Source: Syntrophorhabdaceae bacterium (GTDB lineage Bacteria; Desulfobacterota; Syntrophorhabdia; Syntrophorhabdales; Syntrophorhabdaceae). From it: a stretch of 52,338 nt of DNA. Shown here one piece after another: positions 38,120-50,400 of this stretch. Each line of letters begins with the position of its first letter. Within the stretch, counting starts at the first letter, position 1. The stretch spans positions 1 to 52,338 of the forward strand of contig DASXUJ010000006.1 in the NCBI GenBank assembly GCA_036504895.1, given 5' to 3'. The translations under genes and the position numbers were made by a program. Under the pieces are notes generated by a model. It worked only from the letters and a program-made list of their open reading frames with translations, was not told the DNA's origin and made no database searches.

Positions 38120-39379
38120 ATGAAGCGAGCAGGTTTCTGTGCGATTGCATTGGTCCTGGTTTTTTGCGCGGTCCCGTGCTTTACCGGCGCGGCCGAGAAA
38201 CCGATCATCATCGGAGCGCCCTTATCCACCGCCTTTCTCTACGGTTGGGATGCGGAGCGGGGGGTGAAGCTCGCGGTGGAGGAGATTAACAGCGCGGGAG
38301 GGGTCAACGTGGCAGGGAAAAAGCGGCCCTTCCAAGTGGAGGTCATCGATACGCGCGATCTGGAACCAGGCGTCCCTGTGAGTGAAGCGCTCCTTGCCCT
38401 GGAAAAACTGGTTCTCGATAAGAAAGCGGATTTTATCATAGGAGGACCCATCCGTTCGGAGGCGGCCCTTGCCGCCATGGACCTCCTGTCGAAGTACAAA
38501 AAAGTGAGCATCCTGACTACCGGCGCGCTCACTCCCCTCTATCACAAAAAAGTGGAAGACAACTACAAAAAATACAAATATTGCTTCCGGAACTCGAGCC
38601 ACTCGGGAGTCATGATGACCGAGTTCGTCACCCTTCTCGAAGGTATGAGGAAAACGAACGGCTTCAATAAGGCCTACATCATGGTCCAGGATGTGGAGCA
38701 TGCCCGCAAAGGCGGCGAATTTATGAAAAAGGCCTTGAGCGAGAAGGGGTGGAGCGTAATCGACCTGAAGATTTATCCCACAGGGACGGTCGATTATTCC
38801 ATGGGTCTCCATGACGCGGGGAAAAAGGGCGCCCAGATACTCTTCCTCTGGATGGACATGCCCGAGAGCGCCGTGCTCCTCAAGCAGTGGAGTGACCTGA
38901 AAATGAAGTCGATCCCCGTAGGGTTCGTGAACGCGGCGGAGCAGCCGGGGTTCTGGAAGGCCACATCCGGCAAAGGGGAGTACCTCATCGTGAACCTTGT
39001 CAACGGAGGCAACGCGCCGGCAAAGATCACGCCGTGGACCATGAAATTCGTGAATGCCTACAATAAAAAATATGGTCTCGAGCCCGAAGGGTACGGCACT
39101 TCATCGAGCTATATGGCGGTCTATCAACTGAAAGAAGCGATCGAGAAGGCGGGAAGCATCGATGCGGAAAAGGTGATCCCGGCCCTCGAGAATCTCGATA
39201 TGGTAGGCGTCTACGGCAGGATGCGCTTCGACAAGAAATCGCACCAGATAATCTCATCCATGGACCCCAAAGAGGGCGCGGTGACCTGTATCCTCCAGTG
39301 GCAGAACGGGAAGCGGGTCCAAGTCTTCCCCGCCTCCGTCGCGGAAGGCAAGATCCTCCTGCCCCCGTGGATGAAGTAG
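38120..39379 (+). CDS. livK: Branched-chain-type ABC transporter, substrate-binding protein
   Basis: 419 residues. A signal peptide (FCAIALVLVFCAVPCFTGA) precedes a periplasmic type-I binding protein fold (PIIIGAPLSTAFLYGWDAERGVKLAVEEINSAGGV, in pieces). The LivK family serves amino acids but also urea, amides and aromatic acids. First gene of the operon livK-H-M-G-F-ligase behind a sigma-54 promoter. GGGGG precedes the ATG at a suitable distance. Because the operon ends in a CoA ligase, an organic acid ligand is more likely here than leucine. Confidence 0.85.
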   Translation: MKRAGFCAIALVLVFCAVPCFTGAAEKPIIIGAPLSTAFLYGWDAERGVKLAVEEINSAGGVNVAGKKRPFQVEVIDTRDLEPGVPVSEALLALEKLVLDKKADFIIGGPIRSEAALAAMDLLSKYKKVSILTTGALTPLYHKKVEDNYKKYKYCFRNSSHSGVMMTEFVTLLEGMRKTNGFNKAYIMVQDVEHARKGGEFMKKALSEKGWSVIDLKIYPTGTVDYSMGLHDAGKKGAQILFLWMDMPESAVLLKQWSDLKMKSIPVGFVNAAEQPGFWKATSGKGEYLIVNLVNGGNAPAKITPWTMKFVNAYNKKYGLEPEGYGTSSSYMAVYQLKEAIEKAGSIDAEKVIPALENLDMVGVYGRMRFDKKSHQIISSMDPKEGAVTCILQWQNGKRVQVFPASVAEGKILLPPWMK

Positions 39380-39401
39380 GCATATTGAAAGGGGGTTACC
39401 C

Positions 39402-40268
39402 ATGGAAATCCTCATATACGGCATCATCAACAGCATTGTACTCTCCCTGCTCTCCCTCGGCTTCGCGCTCGTCTACAGTATCTCGCGACTGCCGAATTTT
39501 GCCCATGGAGCGCTCTACATCACCGCGGGCTATCTCGTCTGGATCTTCCTCAATAAGGCGGGTCTTCCCTATGTGGTCTCCATACTGCTCGGCATCGCGG
39601 CGACAAGCTTTATCGGGGCCATGATCTACCGGTTCATCATCATGAGGATAAGGGGTATGGAGATCTCCGAGATCATCGGCACCTATGCCATCGGCCTCGC
39701 AATCATCGAAGGTTTGCGGTGGGGAGGGCTCCGGGGCATGACCTATACCCTTCCCGTCTTTATCAACGGCTCCACGACCATCGCGGGGGTGGCGGTCGAT
39801 TACCAAAGACTTTTGATCGTGGCGGCGGGGATTCTGACCTTTGTCCTCCTCTTTCTCTTTACCCGCTTTAACAAGATCGGCCTTGCCCTGCGCGGCATCG
39901 CCCAGGACGAAAGGGCGGCCATGATGCTGGGGATCGATTCGGACATGACCGCCATTATCTCACTCGCCATAGGCTCCGGACTCGCCGCCTTCGCCGCGGT
40001 CCTGCTCCTGCCTCTCGGCAACATCGTGGTGGAGCAGGGGTATAACGTGCTCATCTTCGCGGTGGCGGTCTGCATCATAGGGGGCCTGGGGAGTTGGAGC
40101 GGGACTATCGTTGCCTCCTTCATCATCGGCTTCGCCCAGATCCTCACCGAGACCCTCGTCTCGACCCATTTCCTCATGGTCGTGGCCCTTCTCGCCATCA
40201 TCGTAACGCTCCTCGTCAAGCCTTCCGGCATATTCGGGAAGCAGAAGCAGCTCGAAGAGAGGGTGTAA
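39402..40268 (+). CDS. livH: Branched-chain-type ABC permease (LivH)
   Basis: 288 residues with eight or so membrane helices. The LivH-type motif region FNKIGLALRGIAQDERAAMMLGID is clear and the final helices end in KPSGIFGKQKQ. This type forms the inner-membrane channel together with LivM. It follows livK after 22 bases and precedes livM by 3. Its ATG has GGGGGT ahead. Substrate range is set by the binding protein. Confidence 0.92.
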   Translation: MEILIYGIINSIVLSLLSLGFALVYSISRLPNFAHGALYITAGYLVWIFLNKAGLPYVVSILLGIAATSFIGAMIYRFIIMRIRGMEISEIIGTYAIGLAIIEGLRWGGLRGMTYTLPVFINGSTTIAGVAVDYQRLLIVAAGILTFVLLFLFTRFNKIGLALRGIAQDERAAMMLGIDSDMTAIISLAIGSGLAAFAAVLLLPLGNIVVEQGYNVLIFAVAVCIIGGLGSWSGTIVASFIIGFAQILTETLVSTHFLMVVALLAIIVTLLVKPSGIFGKQKQLEERV

Positions 40269-40271
40269 GCC

Positions 40272-41282
40272 ATGGAAATGACACGAAACGAAAGGATCGA
40301 CCGGGGACTCAAGGTGAGAACCGAGGGTATATACGCCATTTCGTCATTCGAAGAGATCGGATACCTTGTGGGACCGAGGCTGCTGCTTATTGTAGGGGTG
40401 CTGGCTTTGCCCCTGGTCCTCGAGCTCGCACCCTACTGGAAACGGGTGGTCAATATCATGTGCGTCTACGCCATACTTGCCCTGGCCTTTGATTTTCTGG
40501 CGAATTATGTGGGTCTCGTCTGCCTGGGCGGCGCCCTGTTTATCGGCGTGGGGGGCTATCTCACCGCTATATTCAACGTCTATCTCTCCTTGCCCATCTT
40601 TCTCTCCATTCCGCTGGCCACCGTGTGCGGCGCCGGCGTCTGTACCTTACTCATCTTGCCGTGCCTTCCTTTGAGGGGCGTCTATTTTGCCATCGTCACC
40701 CTTCTTTATCCCATCCTCCTGTCGAGAATCATCGAGGCTTTCGACATCCTCGGGGGGACGAACGGCATATCGGGGGTCGACAGCTTTCCGGGAGACTACA
40801 CGGAGCAGTATATGATCATCATCGTCATGCTCCTCGCCCTCTTCGGCATGAGGCGGCTCGTAAACGAGGACCTCGGCCTCGTGCTCCGGGGCGTCAAGGA
40901 CAACGACCAGTCGGTGAGGGCCTCGGGCATCAACGTGACTTCCATGAAATCACTCGCCGTATTCATCGCCGCTTTTATGGGGTGCTTCAGCGGGGCCTAC
41001 ATCGCCCATCTCTACATGTGGGCGGGCCTCTCGCTCTTCGCCCTCGACTTCTCCATTATCCCTATCGCCGCGGTGGTGATGGGCGGGGGAGGAACCCTGG
41101 TGGGGGCCGTGATAGGCTGTTTCATCCTCGTCCCCCTCTCTGAATTCCTGAGGTTCTTCGGCACCTTCAGGATCGTGATCTATTGCGCGGCGCTCACGGG
41201 CTTTATCGTATTCAAGAGCGAGGGGCTCATGGTCTATCTCCAGAGGAAGTACCACCAGTTCGAAAGGTTGGTGAAGGTATGA
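40272..41282 (+). CDS. livM: Branched-chain-type ABC permease (LivM)
   Basis: 336 residues with about ten hydrophobic segments. The LivM-type regions are DFLANYVGLVCLGGALFIGVGGYL (in pieces) and VLRGVKDNDQSVRASGI, the loop that contacts the ATPase. An N-terminal extension of about 40 residues is hydrophilic and unlike usual LivM. The gene starts at the ATG at 40272, 3 bases after the livH stop, and its TGA overlaps the ATG of livG. Confidence 0.9.
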   Translation: MEMTRNERIDRGLKVRTEGIYAISSFEEIGYLVGPRLLLIVGVLALPLVLELAPYWKRVVNIMCVYAILALAFDFLANYVGLVCLGGALFIGVGGYLTAIFNVYLSLPIFLSIPLATVCGAGVCTLLILPCLPLRGVYFAIVTLLYPILLSRIIEAFDILGGTNGISGVDSFPGDYTEQYMIIIVMLLALFGMRRLVNEDLGLVLRGVKDNDQSVRASGINVTSMKSLAVFIAAFMGCFSGAYIAHLYMWAGLSLFALDFSIIPIAAVVMGGGGTLVGAVIGCFILVPLSEFLRFFGTFRIVIYCAALTGFIVFKSEGLMVYLQRKYHQFERLVKV

Positions 41283-42046
41283 GCCAAACCGTCATTCTCT
41301 CCACCCACGGTATCTCCAAGTCCTTCGGGGGCTTAAAGGCCCTCATGGACGTCAGCTTCGACGTGTACCAGGGCGAGATTTACGGCATCATAGGGCCGAA
41401 CGGCTCGGGCAAGACGACGCTGATCAACTGCATTACGGGGTTCATCAAACCGGACGCGGGACGGGTCGCGCTCAGGGACGAGGATATCACCCGATGGCCC
41501 GCCCATAAGATAGCCCGCATCGGCGTGGCGAGGACCTTTCAGATTATGAGGCCCTATTATTCGCTGCCCGCCTACAAGAACCTCATCATCCCCCTGTGGT
41601 CTCCCCGGGCGAAGAAACTCGGAGGATGGCGCGGGGGAGGCAGGCACGGCGACAGGGACACGGTGGCAGTCGACATACTGGAAGAGATCGGCTTCGAGCG
41701 AGATTCGAGGGTCCCCTATAAGCTGGCCTCCACGCTGCCCACGGGATATCAGAAGAGGCTCGAGCTGGCGAGGTGCATGGCGCTCAGACCCGATGTGATT
41801 TTCTGCGATGAGGTGTTCTCGGGCTTGAGCATGAGCGAGATCGCCGGAATGCTGCCGCTCATAGAGAAGCTCAAGATGGACGGCATCACCCTTATCATGG
41901 TGGAGCACAGACTGAGAGAGCTTTTCAGGGTGGCCGACCGGGTAATGGCCCTCAATTTCGGGGAAAAGATCGCGGAGGGAGATTACACGGAGGTCATCCA
42001 GGATAAACGGGTTAGGGAAGCCTATCTCGGAAGCGAGGAGGTGTAG
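41279..42046 (+). CDS. livG: Branched-chain-type ABC ATPase (LivG)
   Basis: 255 residues. Walker A GPNGSGKTT, the LivG-type region CITGFIKPDAGRV, ATPase contact VARTFQIMRPY, a variant signature region (LASTLPTGYQKRLELARCMA in pieces), Walker B IFCDEVFSGLS and H-loop MVEHRL. The canonical LSGGQ is replaced by LPTGYQ and the usual DEP by DEV. Both are unusual but leave the catalytic Glu in place. The true start is ATG 41279, overlapping the livM stop; the frame is open upstream but only shadows livM. It pairs with LivF. Confidence 0.9.
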   Translation: MSQTVILSTHGISKSFGGLKALMDVSFDVYQGEIYGIIGPNGSGKTTLINCITGFIKPDAGRVALRDEDITRWPAHKIARIGVARTFQIMRPYYSLPAYKNLIIPLWSPRAKKLGGWRGGGRHGDRDTVAVDILEEIGFERDSRVPYKLASTLPTGYQKRLELARCMALRPDVIFCDEVFSGLSMSEIAGMLPLIEKLKMDGITLIMVEHRLRELFRVADRVMALNFGEKIAEGDYTEVIQDKRVREAYLGSEEV

Positions 42047-42048
42047 CC

Positions 42049-42795
42049 ATGTTTGAAGGCCGCGAACTGATGGTATTCTACGAAAACATGCTCGCCCTCA
42101 ATAACGTGAGCCTCGCCTGCGAAGAGGGATCCATCATCGGCATCTTCGGGTCGAACAGCGCGGGGAAAAGCACCCTCATGTACGCCCTCTCCGGGATTAT
42201 CATCGATATCAGAAAAAAGGAAGAGATGCGCGGCGGAGAGAGGATATCCCTTTACGGGGGCGTCTTCCTCGACGGGGTGGATATCACAAAAGTCAAACCC
42301 CACGAGAGGGCGAGGCTCGGCATCGTCCTCTGTCCCGAGAGGAGACGCATCTTTCCCGAAAGCTCGGTCCTCGAGAACCTGAAGATCGGGGCCTACCTCT
42401 CCACCCGGAAAGAGACGAAGGAGAACCTGGAATATGTCCTCGACCTTTTTCCCAGGCTGAAAGACCACCTCTCCCGACAGGGAGGGTTCTTGAGTGGAGG
42501 GGAGCAGCAGATGCTCGCCATCGGGAGGGCCCTCATGGCCCATCCCAAGATACTCCTTCTCGACGAGCCGCTCCTCGGCCTCTCGCCGGCCTACCAGGAT
42601 ATCGTGGTGAATGGGACAAGGGCCATAAGGGACACCAAGGGGATTACCATCATCGTGACGGAGCAGTACGCCCGGCCGGTGATCCCCATCATCGACAGGG
42701 GCTATATTCTGGAGAACGGCTCGAGTGTGCTCTCAGGGACGAAGGAGGAGCTGCTCGACAACCCGGATGTAAAATCCGCATATTTTGGGGTATAA
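42049..42795 (+). CDS. livF: Branched-chain-type ABC ATPase (LivF)
   Basis: 248 residues. Walker A GSNSAGKST, the Q-loop region GIVLCPERRRIFPESSV, signature LSGGEQQMLAIGRALM, Walker B LLLDEPLLGLSPAY and the switch region IIVTEQYA. Walker A has Ser-Asn-Ser-Ala in place of the usual Asn-Gly-Ala/Ser-Gly, but the GKST core is intact. In the LivF family the second ATPase is normally the catalytically standard one, as here. The acyl-CoA ligase begins 10 bases later, with an AAAGGAG site in the gap. Confidence 0.92.
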   Translation: MFEGRELMVFYENMLALNNVSLACEEGSIIGIFGSNSAGKSTLMYALSGIIIDIRKKEEMRGGERISLYGGVFLDGVDITKVKPHERARLGIVLCPERRRIFPESSVLENLKIGAYLSTRKETKENLEYVLDLFPRLKDHLSRQGGFLSGGEQQMLAIGRALMAHPKILLLDEPLLGLSPAYQDIVVNGTRAIRDTKGITIIVTEQYARPVIPIIDRGYILENGSSVLSGTKEELLDNPDVKSAYFGV

Positions 42796-42804
42796 AGGAG
42801 CCTG

Positions 42805-44466
42805 ATGATGGAACTCTACAAGGAAGAATATACCTTTTCCCGTTTTGACGAGATGTGCGAGAAGGAGCCGGGAAACACGGCACTCTATTACCTGGGGGAG
42901 CGCTTCAGCTACGGAAGGCTGACCATGCTCATCGACCGGTTTGCCGCGGGCCTCGCGAAGATCGGGGTCAGGCCCCAGGACCGGGTCATGCTCTACATCC
43001 CCAACTGCCCGCAGTGGATCATCGCAAATTTCGCCATCAACAAGATCGGTGCGGTCATGGTTCCCGTGTCGCCCATCTATACGGCTTATGAGATCGAGTA
43101 CATGATCGAAGATGCGGACATAAAGACCGTGATCTGCCTCGACACGAACTTCGTCTACATCAGGGAGGTCATGAGAAAGACCCACCTCGAGCGCGTCATC
43201 ATCACCAACCTCGTGGAGCTGATCCCCATGTGGAAACAGGTGGTGGGACGGCTCTTCGACAAGATTCCCCATGGAAAGATAGAAAAAGGCAACGAGGTCT
43301 ACTCTTTCTGGCAGCTTATCAAAGAGAATTGGCCGAAGCCGCCCAAGATCGAGATCAATCCGTGGACGGACCTTGCCTATATCATGTACACAGGAGGCAC
43401 CACGGGTTTTCCCAAGGGGGTGCCGGGAAGTCACATGGGCGAGGTCTCCTATATCAGGGATATCATGGGGGACCTGCTTCCGGGCCACATGACCGAGTCG
43501 AAGGAGACGGTGCTCATGGTGAATCCCCTTTTCCATATCATGGCAAAAGGCTTCACCATCGCCTTCGGGTTCAATTTCGGGAACAAGGTGATCCTCATGC
43601 CGACCCCCGAGGTCGACCCTACCCTGAAGGCAATAGAACGGTACAAGGTGGGGTGGATGCTGGGCGTCCCTGCCCTCTACCGCATGATCCTCGAAAACGA
43701 CAGGGTCGACCAGTACGACCTCTCGTCCCTCAAATTCTGCTACTGCGGGGGAGACGTATTGCCTGCCGAGGTCTACAAAACCTGGAAGGCGAAATATGGG
43801 GTGCCCATCTATCAGGTCTATGGGTCGACCGAGGTGGGCCACGTGACCTACAGCCTTCTCGATAAGGAGCCGAAGCCGACCGTGGTGGGCTCACCGCTTC
43901 GGTCGAGGAAATGCATCCTGGGCGATCAGGTCACGATGGAGCCGGTGGCGCAGGGCGAAGTAGGCGAGCTTATGGTCACCTCGCCCTATACGATCAAGAG
44001 CTACTGGAAAAAACCGGAGGAGACGGAGCGCTCCTTCGTGGCCTTAAACGGGGACATCTATTACCGTATGGGCGATTTCATGAAGATGAACGAGGACGGG
44101 GAGCTCGAGTTTGTGGAGAGGACGGCAGATACGATCAAGTATAAGGCATACCGTATATCGGCCTCCGAGATCGAGGCGGTCCTCCAGGACCACCCGACGG
44201 TGATAGGCGCGTGCGCGGTAGGCATTCCCGACCCGCGGGTGGGCGAGCGAATCAAGGCGATCGTGGTATTGAAAGAAGATGCCAAAGGCGTGGGCAGCAG
44301 CGAGCTCACGAAATGGTGCAGGGACCGCCTCGCGCCCTATAAGATCCCCCATTACATTGAGTTCAGGGATATGCTGCCCAAGTCGAAAGTGGGGAAGCTC
44401 TTAAGGAGGGAGATCAGGGATGAGGAGAAGAGGCGGCTCCAGAAGGAGAAGAAAGTCCATGCCTGA
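42805..44466 (+). CDS. AMP-forming acyl-CoA ligase of the Liv operon
   Basis: 553 residues of the ANL superfamily. The ATP loop is YTGGTTGFPKG (A3), then YGSTEVG (A5), GDFMKMNEDGELEFVERTADTIK in pieces (A7-A8) and the catalytic Lys of A10 in KVGKLLR. It activates a carboxylic acid with ATP and CoA. Position at the end of a Liv-type uptake operon under a sigma-54 promoter suggests the imported acid is its substrate; aromatic or fatty acid cannot be told apart by eye. ATG 42805 and the next codon ATG 42808 are both possible. A strong hairpin follows the stop. Confidence 0.9.
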   Translation: MMELYKEEYTFSRFDEMCEKEPGNTALYYLGERFSYGRLTMLIDRFAAGLAKIGVRPQDRVMLYIPNCPQWIIANFAINKIGAVMVPVSPIYTAYEIEYMIEDADIKTVICLDTNFVYIREVMRKTHLERVIITNLVELIPMWKQVVGRLFDKIPHGKIEKGNEVYSFWQLIKENWPKPPKIEINPWTDLAYIMYTGGTTGFPKGVPGSHMGEVSYIRDIMGDLLPGHMTESKETVLMVNPLFHIMAKGFTIAFGFNFGNKVILMPTPEVDPTLKAIERYKVGWMLGVPALYRMILENDRVDQYDLSSLKFCYCGGDVLPAEVYKTWKAKYGVPIYQVYGSTEVGHVTYSLLDKEPKPTVVGSPLRSRKCILGDQVTMEPVAQGEVGELMVTSPYTIKSYWKKPEETERSFVALNGDIYYRMGDFMKMNEDGELEFVERTADTIKYKAYRISASEIEAVLQDHPTVIGACAVGIPDPRVGERIKAIVVLKEDAKGVGSSELTKWCRDRLAPYKIPHYIEFRDMLPKSKVGKLLRREIRDEEKRRLQKEKKVHA

Positions 44467-46569: not shown

Positions 46570-46957
46570 ATTTTCCTTTTGCAACAAGATAGGGCTTTTC
46601 TCCACAGATGAGGCTGTTTTTCCAGTTAATGCAGGCATGGTAAAGCGTCTCGGGTAGTTCGTCCATCTTCCGGATCATTTATTGCCCTCAAGGGGGACAC
46701 CTAATACTACACCTAAATATCTCAAAAGGAAACTTATAAAACAATTCGCGGAATGTAACTAATCCGTCTCCGGCAAGAAAGAAGGCATTGGTTAAAAGGA
46801 GCAGAGATGACAGGGCTTGGAGCGGGAACTTTGCGAGAATTGTGATGTATGTGAAAGTGTCTGGTTCGTAATTGCTCCGATGAATTTTCCTCCGAAGAAA
46901 GAGGTTCAGGGAGAGGAGGCCTTGACCCTTAAGGCCGCTCAGGCTCCGGGGTCGTGC
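46570..46957. other. Intergenic region; nothing firm
   Basis: About 390 bases. A plus-strand ATG at 46807 with AAAAGGAG ahead gives only 12 codons. GGCCTT and AAGGCC (near 46917-46937) form a short stem after the minus-strand gene at 46958, without a T run. No promoter or RNA gene could be recognised. Confidence 0.35.
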
Positions 46958-47404
46958 CTATCCGTTGCTTCCGAGCCTGAATTCGTAGGCTTTCAGCTCT
47001 TCGGCTACTCCCGCACGGACGAGGAAAGTGTCCACCAGATCGCGGAACTCCAGGGCTGTCTCTTTTGCGGCCTCATAATCCTTTGCGTTCCGGGTGGTCT
47101 TTGTATAATTTACTTCCGCATAAATAAAGATTATATAATCTATCTTGTCATAACCGGCATCGCTGTAGGCGAGGTGGTCTCTCGCCACCACGAGTCGGTA
47201 GGGAACACCGGTGCGGCGCCACACAAAGGTCTGCCCCAGGAATATGGCCTTTCTCACCGAATCCAGGGAGGGCATGGTCACGCCGTTCGGGCCGGTGTCG
47301 ACATTGGCCCATTCCCTAAAGAGGCGCAGTATCTCGAGGTAAAGTTTCCCCTTTATGTCGTCACGGGGGGCCGCCAAATTGGAAAGCTTCACCCCGAAGG
47401 GCAC
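46958..47404 (-). CDS. Uncharacterised protein, C-terminal part after an in-frame amber codon
   Basis: 148 residues from GTG 47404. The product is mostly alpha/beta and soluble (VWRRTGVPYRLVVARDHLAY, DKIDYIIFIYAEVNYTKTTR). I recognise no family, though the last helix (AAKETALEFRDLVDTFLVRAG) looks well folded. The same frame continues upstream without interruption to 47458, then TAG (47461-47459), then another 51 codons to an ATG at 47614. A single 219-codon gene with one nonsense codon is therefore more likely than two genes. No ribosome site stands before GTG 47404. Confidence 0.5.
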   Translation of the reverse strand: MPFGVKLSNLAAPRDDIKGKLYLEILRLFREWANVDTGPNGVTMPSLDSVRKAIFLGQTFVWRRTGVPYRLVVARDHLAYSDAGYDKIDYIIFIYAEVNYTKTTRNAKDYEAAKETALEFRDLVDTFLVRAGVAEELKAYEFRLGSNG

Positions 47405-47458
47405 ACTTCTCTTCCCTTGCGGCTGACTCCGGTCTTCCTTCGCCTCGAGCTCCTGTGC

Positions 47459-47614
47459 CTATTGAAATGATTCATCAGCGGCGGCTGCTGCAACGACAAC
47501 TTCCGCAGGTGATATCTCACCCGTGTCCGAAGACGATATCTTTTCAGAAGAAGGCGCTTGAAATTCTATTTCTTCAGGAGTAATTGCCATTACACTCTCT
47601 GCGATTTTTTTCAT
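47459..47614 (-). pseudogene. N-terminal part of the same gene, ending at the amber codon
   Basis: 51 codons from ATG 47614, ending at TAG 47461-47459. AAAGGTG lies about 10 bases upstream of the ATG, which is better than any site near the downstream GTG. The text begins MKKIAESVMAITPEEIEF and turns Ala and Ser-rich near the stop, like a linker. After the TAG the frame continues AQELEAKEDRSQPQ and then the conserved-looking C-terminal part. It is the start of an interrupted gene rather than a separate peptide, unless the amber codon is read through. Confidence 0.5.
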
Positions 47615-47990
47615 ATCAAAAATTCACCTTTGCCTGCAGTGGGGCCTGATATTCCGGTCATAAGCCCTTTCTTAAACTACGCGTCGATTCTGAGTGGGGC
47701 GGCAAATTCTGAGATCATCTTCTTTGTGCCTCATGTATTCGAACCGGATGTGACCCCTAACGCGCGTATTAAGGGCCGGCTACACCGCGTAAACCGCGAT
47801 GGGACGAAAGGCATGGGACGATGTAATGCTCGCTCCCGGATTCTATTATATCATATTGACCGAGCTGAAGAAATATCGGGCCCTTCCGGAATGAAGATGT
47901 CTTTGATAATAGACCGATATTATTATAATTTATTCGATAAGCCCCTTCCTTTCCTGCGGATCCCCTATAGAAAACCAGTACTGGCGGGGT

Positions 47991-50330
47991 TTACCTGTCG
48001 AGAATCTCTCTCACCTTAGCAAGCATCTCGTCGGGGGCGATAGGCTTGGAAATGAAATCAACCTCTTTCGTCTCGATCCCCTTATCGAGCACCACGTCCC
48101 GCGTATAGCCACTCGTAAAAATTACCCTGATGCCGGGATTCACGGTCCGCGCCTCATCCCATACTTCCCGTCCGTTCTTCTTGGGCATGACCGAATCGAG
48201 GATCACGAGGTCTATGCGCTTTGTGGTCCTGATCCGGTCTACCGCGTCCTGACCGTCTACTGCCTCCAAGACCGTATATCCATATTTTGTGAGTATGCTA
48301 CGGATAAGCCGCCGTACATCCCCGTTATCTTCAGCGACCAGAATGGTCTCATTTCCCCGCCGTAATTCGGGCGGCGCAGGCTTCTTTTCAAAAGTCATCG
48401 ACTGCAACGCAGGAAAATAGAGACGGAAGGTCGTCCCCGCGCCCGGCTCGCTGTAGACGGTGATGAATCCGTTATGCTGTTTCATTACCCCGTAAACTGT
48501 GGAAAGACCGAGCCCCGTGCCCTTGCCAAGCTCTTTCGTGGTGAAAAAAGGGTCGAAGATTTTTTCCTGCGTTGCGGCGTCCATTCCGAGGCCCGTATCG
48601 GAGACGGAAAGGCGGGCATACATACCGGGGGCGCCGTAGCCGTAGGCCTTGATGAAATCTTCATCCAGCTCCACGAGCCCCGTCTCGATCGTGAGGGCGC
48701 CACCCCGCTGCATGGCATCCCGCGCATTCGTGCCGAGGTTGAAGAGGATCTGCTCCAACTGGGTAGGATCAGCCATGATCACTACATCTTCTGCGGCAAG
48801 AATGGTTTTGAGCTCGACGTCCTCGGGAAGAAGCCTCTTCAGGAGCTTTTCGGTTGCCTTGATCTCCCGGTTCAAGTTGAGAGAGGTGAGGCTTACGGGC
48901 TGTTGCCTGCTGAAGGCGAGAAGACTTTTGGTAAGGTTGGCGGCCTTTTCCGTGGATGCAAGGATAGGATCTATGTAGGATCTCAAAGGGCTCGTATTTT
49001 CAACCGCCATTTTGAGCAGAGAGCCGTATCCTGAGATTACGGTCAAAATATTGTTAAAGTCGTGGGCGATCCCTCCGGCAAGGGTACCTACGGCCTCCAT
49101 CTTCTGAGCTTGGCGAAGCTGGGATTCCAGTCGTTTCTGGCTTGTGATGTCATTGAAAATCGTGGCGAACCGACCTTTTTTGGGGGAGAAGGCGGAGACA
49201 TGGAAATCCCTCTTCATGCTCTCGTGGCGCGCCTCGAAGCTGTAAGACTTTCCCGTGGCTGCTACCGTTGAATAGATCGAAAGGTAAGGAGGTCTACCGC
49301 CCCCATAGAGATCGCTTGCGAGACTGCCCACTGCGGTCCTGCGTGTAATGCCCGTATGCCTTTCATATGCGGGGTTCACGTCGATGATGCGGTAATCGAC
49401 GGCCCTTCCCGTCTCCCCATAGACCATTTCATGGAGCGCGACTCCTTCGGCCATATAACGGAAGAGGGAGTGGAAACGCTCCTCGCTCTCCTTCAGCGCT
49501 TCTTCCGATAGTCTTCGCTCGGTAATGTCGTGACTGAAGGCAACGCTCAGCTCCTTCCCCTCACGGACGAGGTAATTCGCCCTTACCTCGATGGGATATT
49601 CGGTCCCGTTTTTCCTTTTATGAAAAGTCTCGAAGGAGAGGGCTCCTTTCCGCCTCAGTCTTTCCCAGAATTTGCGATGTACCTCGGGAGTATATGCGCG
49701 GTCGAGATCGGAGATGGTGAGCCCGAGCAGCTCATCCCGCGAATATCCGAGCATCTCGCATTGGGCGTCATTTACGTAGGTGAGCCTGCCGTCGGGGGAG
49801 ATCACGTGGACCGCCTCGGAAGCCTTGTCCATGATAAATTGTGCAAAGCGAAGGGTATCTTCCGCCTCCTTGCGTCCCGCGATATCGCGAACCGTGCCCA
49901 GGACGAAATCCCTGCCCCCGATGGTTGTCCGTCTGAGGCTCACTTCCACCCAAAAGAGGCGCCCTGATTTATGCTTCGAAAGCCATTCGAAGAGTTGGGG
50001 CTCCCCTGCTGCGGCCAGGCGGACCCTCTTATGGGCCTCTTCATCCGTATAAGGCGGCTCTCCTGCGCTCGAGTCTCCCGCCTTGAGCAAAAGCACCTCA
50101 TCGTGGGGGTAGCCGTACATTTCACAGGCGCGGAGGTTAACGTCCACAAGGGCCCCGGTATCGCATTCGTGAATGAATACCCCATCATTGATCGAATCGA
50201 ATATGATTCGCAGGCGCTCGTTATCCTCCCTCAAATCCTGCCCGGTATCGCGATTCTCGAGATCGGCAATGTGCCTGCGGGCTACGGCCAGCTCTCTTTC
50301 AAGCCTCTCTATTTCTTCTTTTTCAGTCAT
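47991..50330 (-). CDS. Hybrid sensor kinase: three PAS domains, HisKA, HATPase and receiver
   Basis: 779 residues, soluble. A short coiled coil (EIERLERELAVARRHIADLE) is followed by three PAS domains, HisKA with [17 protein letters not shown], HATPase_c ([33 protein letters not shown]) and a C-terminal receiver (VAEDNGD, VILDSVMPKKNG, SKPIAP). The kinase core and receiver closely match the kinase at 5194-7086. ATG 50330 has AAAGGGA ahead; the frame is open to 50372. No regulator gene is adjacent. It diverges from an acyl-CoA ligase gene, so it may sense the same class of compound, but this is only a guess. Confidence 0.92.
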   Translation of the reverse strand: MTEKEEIERLERELAVARRHIADLENRDTGQDLREDNERLRIIFDSINDGVFIHECDTGALVDVNLRACEMYGYPHDEVLLLKAGDSSAGEPPYTDEEAHKRVRLAAAGEPQLFEWLSKHKSGRLFWVEVSLRRTTIGGRDFVLGTVRDIAGRKEAEDTLRFAQFIMDKASEAVHVISPDGRLTYVNDAQCEMLGYSRDELLGLTISDLDRAYTPEVHRKFWERLRRKGALSFETFHKRKNGTEYPIEVRANYLVREGKELSVAFSHDITERRLSEEALKESEERFHSLFRYMAEGVALHEMVYGETGRAVDYRIIDVNPAYERHTGITRRTAVGSLASDLYGGGRPPYLSIYSTVAATGKSYSFEARHESMKRDFHVSAFSPKKGRFATIFNDITSQKRLESQLRQAQKMEAVGTLAGGIAHDFNNILTVISGYGSLLKMAVENTSPLRSYIDPILASTEKAANLTKSLLAFSRQQPVSLTSLNLNREIKATEKLLKRLLPEDVELKTILAAEDVVIMADPTQLEQILFNLGTNARDAMQRGGALTIETGLVELDEDFIKAYGYGAPGMYARLSVSDTGLGMDAATQEKIFDPFFTTKELGKGTGLGLSTVYGVMKQHNGFITVYSEPGAGTTFRLYFPALQSMTFEKKPAPPELRRGNETILVAEDNGDVRRLIRSILTKYGYTVLEAVDGQDAVDRIRTTKRIDLVILDSVMPKKNGREVWDEARTVNPGIRVIFTSGYTRDVVLDKGIETKEVDFISKPIAPDEMLAKVREILDR

Positions 50331-50400
50331 GCCGTCCCTTTGGGATTGATAGTTTAGAATAATATAACGCATATTTCATGTTTTTGCCTTCCCCTATTTA

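Follow-up and report, generated by a model that had tools for sequence, protein, structure and literature searches.

An in-frame amber codon in an apparent orphan gene of a Syntrophorhabdaceae bacterium and the question of its decoding

The interrupted frame and its surroundings

The window studied in this work is the whole stretch of 52,338 nucleotides that forms bases 1-52338 of contig C6 (DASXUJ010000006.1) of a Syntrophorhabdaceae bacterium (GCA_036504895.1). The source genome is a 4.35 Mb draft of 138 contigs, with a listed completeness of 100 and a listed contamination of 1.61. On the minus strand of the window, a frame extends from ATG 47614-47612 to the final stop codon TAG at 46960-46958, for a total of 219 codons with this stop counted. 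Its sole interruption is a TAG (amber) codon at 47461-47459, which is codon 52, and every other codon is open. An earlier note had placed the start, the amber codon and the end of the frame at 46958 at the same positions and had described the frame as otherwise open, and all of this was borne out. A Shine-Dalgarno-like AGGTGA (47624-47629, minus strand), recognized from the sequence and the duplex energy, lies 9 nt before ATG 47614. The upstream ORF (47462-47614, minus strand) comprises 51 codons, is rich in Ala, Glu and Ser, and, judged by its open frame, its phase information and a third-position GC content (GC3) of 0.29, corresponds probably to a largely disordered N-terminal segment or to a separate small ORF. 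The amber codon (47459-47461, minus strand) is followed by 18 open codons (47405-47458, minus strand) that precede the first later start codon and whose coding status is left undecided by a codon score of 0.11 bits per codon. The remaining part, on the same strand, is an ORF of 148 codons that starts with GTG (46958-47404); its codon score identifies it as coding, it is an orphan, and a low-confidence model predicts that it forms an alpha/beta domain.

The neighbouring gene at 47991-50372 encodes a hybrid histidine kinase that contains several PAS domains and, at the C terminus, a receiver domain. The product of the segment 44554-46638 has 694 residues and contains a divergent InlB B-repeat domain as well as weak matches to Ig-like domains near its end, and positions 38120-44466 harbour the genes of a branched-chain amino-acid type ABC transporter (a binding protein, two permeases and one ATPase), followed by an AMP-binding ligase. 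A candidate antisense gene, a 217-codon ORF with a TTG start (46817-47470, plus strand) that lies over most of the gene, was rejected: judged by its codon score (0.07 versus 0.38 bits per codon), this ORF only shadows the sense frame. The search for repeat, promoter and terminator patterns around the gene returned one short palindrome inside the downstream ORF and one promoter-like site (47590-47563) inside the upstream ORF, where 1.7 such sites are expected by chance in the region. The RNA from just before the amber codon to 104 bases past it was predicted to fold no better than its shuffles (z +1.02).

Genes were called with a simple codon model over 452 kb of the source genome (400 kb plus the window), resulting in 360 called genes. 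The layout of the frame is not rare in this set, since 37 of the 357 called genes with an upstream in-frame stop are preceded by an ORF that starts with ATG in the same frame, has 51 codons or more and ends at this stop. Such upstream ORFs were found for 11 of 75 TAG, 13 of 123 TAA and 13 of 159 TGA stops (TAG versus the rest, p 0.20), and 20 of the 37 have at least 100 codons, as expected of neighbouring genes. The layout alone is thus ordinary, and the interrupted frame stands above chance because its upstream 50 codons look coding.

Coding signal on the two sides of the amber codon

The 50 codons after ATG 47614 have a phase information of 0.203 bits, as compared to a mean of 0.032 bits (SD 0.018) in stop-free dinucleotide shuffles, and none of 3000 such shuffles reached this value. 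It was reached by 3 of the 357 intergenic 150-base pieces of the source genome, of which two are neighbours on one contig and which may include missed genes. Following the removal of a run of five alanines, the phase information was 0.162 bits, which is above that of all 5000 mononucleotide shuffles generated. In a running profile, the high phase information starts at about 47630, as expected for a start at this ATG. The upstream ORF exceeds 98% of 2377 coding pieces in this respect, and its phase information therefore partly reflects a skewed amino-acid make-up: Ala, Glu, Lys, Ser, Pro, Gln, Asp, Thr and Gly account for 76% of the peptide, and Cys, Trp, His, Tyr, Arg, Leu, Phe and Asn for 4%, as compared to 50% and 36%, respectively, in shuffles. 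With such a make-up, the peptide reads as a tail and not as a stand-alone fold.

The codon usage of the upstream ORF is atypical. For GC3, the first 51 codons of 337 called genes were measured, and none has a value as low as its 0.29; in synonymous codon choice, it ranks at the 2nd percentile among 337 gene starts. The codon score was -0.07 bits per codon with a model trained on the window, which is below the 1st percentile of 249 gene pieces, and 0.03 bits per codon with a larger model, corresponding to the 12th percentile of the 337 gene starts. Of the dinucleotide shuffles of this stretch, 7.4% remain open. In summary, the upstream ORF is very probably coding, with a codon choice that is unusual for the source genome.

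The ribosome sites at the two start codons were also compared. The 16S rRNA was sought in the source genome for its anti-Shine-Dalgarno tail and was not matched, which is an unreliable absence since the same search matched just 9 of 14 control genomes, and a generic tail was used for the energy calculations. Both this unmatched 16S rRNA and the lack of a Tyr or Ile label among the 39 tRNAs are observed despite the listed completeness of 100. The AGGTGA site at ATG 47614 has an energy of -7.5 kcal/mol, and sites as strong are present at 30% of the 360 called gene starts and at 8% of 6795 internal start codons. At GTG 47404, an AAGGGAA is located 7 nt ahead (-4.6 kcal/mol), a strength that is matched or beaten by 56% of the called gene starts and 35% of the internal start codons. 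The claim of the earlier note that the downstream part lacks a ribosome site needs to be modified, since AAGGGAA exists at this position; what stands of it is that the site is weak, uninformative and not above the internal background.

The 148 codons from GTG 47404 score 0.37-0.38 bits per codon, which is mid-range for genes of the source genome. As to the 18 codons after the TAG, 14% of 5909 internal 18-codon pieces have a score as low as theirs, and 19% of 70 open stretches ahead of called starts have one as high. Tail-type residues account for 83% of them, as in the upstream peptide, yet this is no more than in their own shuffles; these codons, too few and indistinguishable from their shuffles, carry no significant coding signal of their own. 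The GC3 changes from 0.29 before the TAG to 0.67 after it. Among the 218 codons, the change point is best placed between codon 51 and the TAG, and placements at codons 50 to 54 are within one log unit of this optimum. A step this strong at any position was found in 2 of 284 genes, and first 51 codons that are as low relative to the rest in 1 of 284. Given the lowest GC3 and a step that ends exactly at the TAG, the upstream ORF may be of foreign origin.

Homologues and predicted structure

Within the collections searched, the gene is apparently a lineage-restricted orphan. The 148-residue part was matched in its own genome alone among 99 genomes, namely, its own and those of 98 relatives, two of which belong to the same genus and a further 36 to the family; the same result was obtained for 395 genomes of the phylum, a set that includes its own genome and partly overlaps the 99. 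Two scans each of genome contigs and viral contigs, which detect close relatives only, confirmed no homologue, and tblastn against phages and plasmids returned none at E 0.1. The downstream part had no Pfam match at E 0.001 or E 10 and no match among PDB sequences at E 1. Its single PHROGs match was far from significance (E 0.11), and its single NCBIfam match had 15.1 bits (E 0.012), as compared to a cut-off of 81.4. A search of its own genome with the upstream peptide alone returned no match at E 10 other than the peptide itself, and there was no Pfam match at E 10 and no NCBIfam match at E 1. At the DNA level, the region was compared with 39 family genomes, its own included. Among the matches listed, the strong non-self ones cover just the end of the neighbouring kinase gene (positions 1-215 of the query), and those to the gene itself do not exceed about 40 bases.

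With the read-through form as query, only weak matches (E 0.005 to 0.09) were obtained, in 10 of the other 394 genomes. The loci were examined for 7 of these 10; six were matched again, at 13-17 bits, and one was not. All seven were judged unrelated and rejected. They include what we take to be an HD-type, a universal-stress-type and a branched-chain permease-like protein, as well as a serine-rich low-complexity frame, a frame that looks non-coding and a match located in a 657-residue frame.

Structure models were of low confidence, with a pLDDT of 57.5 and a pTM of 0.54 for the downstream domain and a pLDDT of 55.3 for the 218-residue form, in which the TAG was read as a residue. In the latter model, any helix or strand within the first 45 residues is at most three residues long, and the first strand of the predicted domain starts at residue 69, ahead of GTG 47404, which is codon 71. 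The same low-confidence model places a helix at residues 46-60, across the TAG, and the tail is therefore perhaps not wholly disordered. Foldseek searches with the models returned no match at E <= 0.001 in the PDB or among viral models, and given this result and the low confidence of the models, no fold is drawn.

Reading of the amber codon and origin of the interrupted frame

Genes with pyrrolysine-decoded amber codons, of the MtmB, MtbB and MttB type, are found in methanogens and in some Deltaproteobacteria. The frame analyzed here resembles them in its in-frame TAG and in being open on both sides, but its TAG lies in what appears to be a tail and not an active site. In addition, the corresponding machinery was not found. 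The PylS model (TIGR02367) had three matches in the source genome, of which the best had 24 bits, as compared to a cut-off of 178.15, and the PylD model (TIGR03911) had no match at E <= 0.001; in 14 control genomes, the cut-off of either model was passed in one. The single match to PF01409, at 344 bits, is taken as PheS, and no match to MttB was detected in the source genome. None of the 39 tRNAs identified by the RF00005 search and read individually by ARAGORN has a CUA anticodon, in a set that is incomplete (no Tyr or Ile label) and with a method in which an atypical pylT can score low. No Rfam family matched within the window.

TAG is in normal use as a stop codon. Release factor RF1 (prfA) is present in the source genome, above the cut-off, and TAG terminates 76 of the 360 called genes. 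Open 3' extensions of at least 60 codons follow 17 of 76 TAG, 22 of 109 TAA and 24 of 175 TGA stops, a slightly but not significantly higher frequency for TAG (p 0.23); the same applies to coding-like extensions, 7 past TAG, 7 past TAA and 11 past TGA (p 0.44). The release-factor model had a third, short match on contig C23 of the source genome (5935-6210; 64 bits, in a 145-codon frame), which we assume is perhaps a ribosome-rescue hydrolase. Pyrrolysine use has been reported for some marine Deltaproteobacteria (PMC8318568); apart from this and from the in-frame TAG itself, nothing speaks for its insertion at 47461-47459. Specific decoding of this TAG is very unlikely, and pyrrolysine, which the earlier note had offered as one option, is close to refuted.

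Among the remaining explanations, a single orphan gene split by one amber codon is the likeliest, and we hold it with about even confidence. The gene would comprise 218 codons, with a tail of about 68 residues at the N terminus of the product ahead of a folded alpha/beta domain. The interruption in the tail would probably be due to a nonsense substitution of one base that occurred recently, to a strain variant or to a consensus error in the draft assembly. Coding signal is present in one and the same frame upstream, as periodicity, and downstream, as codon score; there is a single lesion, and the remainder is open. A good ribosome site precedes ATG 47614, and the one ahead of GTG 47404 does not exceed the background; the upstream peptide is tail-like in make-up and, in the low-confidence model, in its first 45 residues, and the use of TAG and RF1 in this genome is that of an ordinary stop. 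What speaks against this reading is the GC3 step at the TAG, together with the lack of an uninterrupted homologue in the searches and of a significant coding signal in the 18 codons after the TAG; the predicted helix over the TAG weighs against a wholly disordered tail. The GC3 step, which is the main counterevidence, fits two units of different history; however, steps near a gene start have other causes, and its exact position at the TAG could be luck. Two adjacent ORFs that happen to share a frame are next in likelihood, a tentative alternative in which a 51-residue protein is made from ATG 47614 and a 148-residue protein from GTG 47404 after a gap of 54 bases, so that the TAG terminates the first protein in the ordinary way and no gene is damaged. 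Apart from the step, with its best change point at the TAG itself, this alternative draws on the unusual synonymous codon choice upstream, on a downstream ORF that is complete, well scored and equipped with an ordinary if weak ribosome site, on a GTG start at the edge of the predicted domain, and on the promoter-like site in the upstream ORF, although that single site is below chance expectation. It has to accept the shared frame as a coincidence (1 in 3), a ribosome site at GTG 47404 that is no better than those of random internal start codons, and an upstream peptide that resembles a tail and not a protein of its own. It appears improbable that the upstream part is non-coding, with 51 codons open by chance and a gene that begins at GTG 47404. 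The frequency of long open upstream ORFs and of shuffles that stay open, the low codon score and the extreme GC3 would agree with this, but the phase information, which surpasses every dinucleotide shuffle and 354 of the 357 intergenic pieces and persists without the alanine run, and the good ribosome site at ATG 47614 do not. The earlier note had considered such a non-coding upstream part as what would overturn its view, and the strong codon periodicity in that frame makes it unlikely.

Stops inside prokaryotic genes are attributed in the PMC7918605 survey to annotation artefacts, sequencing errors, pseudogenes and functional genes with a premature stop. The bacterial genes with a single in-frame stop covered there resemble the present case in having one stop, no frameshift or second stop, and coding signal on both sides; in that survey, however, relatives allowed selection to be measured, whereas here no relative was found and neither decay nor selection can be shown. 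A leaky stop, at which near-cognate tRNAs let a small share of ribosomes read the TAG so that a minor 218-residue form arises beside the 51-residue peptide, is very unlikely. The frame is undamaged on both sides, and readthrough of in-frame stops is argued in PMC7918605 to be frequent in prokaryotes, but the vast majority of such events are assumed there not to be functional recoding; furthermore, the downstream RNA structure is not beyond chance, and no relatives with a conserved stop were found. Even less probable is a role of the amber codon as a functional switch in a new orphan gene, by which most ribosomes would yield the 51-residue peptide and a regulated fraction would either read through the TAG or re-initiate at GTG 47404 to make the domain with or without its tail. 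In that case, two coding pieces that differ in origin would have been fused recently, with the GC3 step as the mark of this event.

The pseudogene by one nonsense change that the earlier note had favoured is thus still the most likely explanation, given the coding signal on both sides in the same frame, but it is not proven, and its rival of two ORFs, which was not among the options of that note, is backed by the GC3 step. If the gene is split, ribosomes that start at ATG 47614 would stop at the TAG and release a 51-residue peptide, since TAG normally stops translation in this organism, and the intact domain would be made only by re-initiation or weak initiation at GTG 47404. Neither a split gene nor two adjacent ORFs would be surprising, and the locus is ordinary either way. 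The chief value of this analysis is its negative result: when the pyl machinery is missing from a bacterial draft genome, an in-frame TAG does not indicate the use of pyrrolysine. Furthermore, this small orphan gene is an example of a locus at which gene callers would struggle to determine the true limits of the coding sequence.
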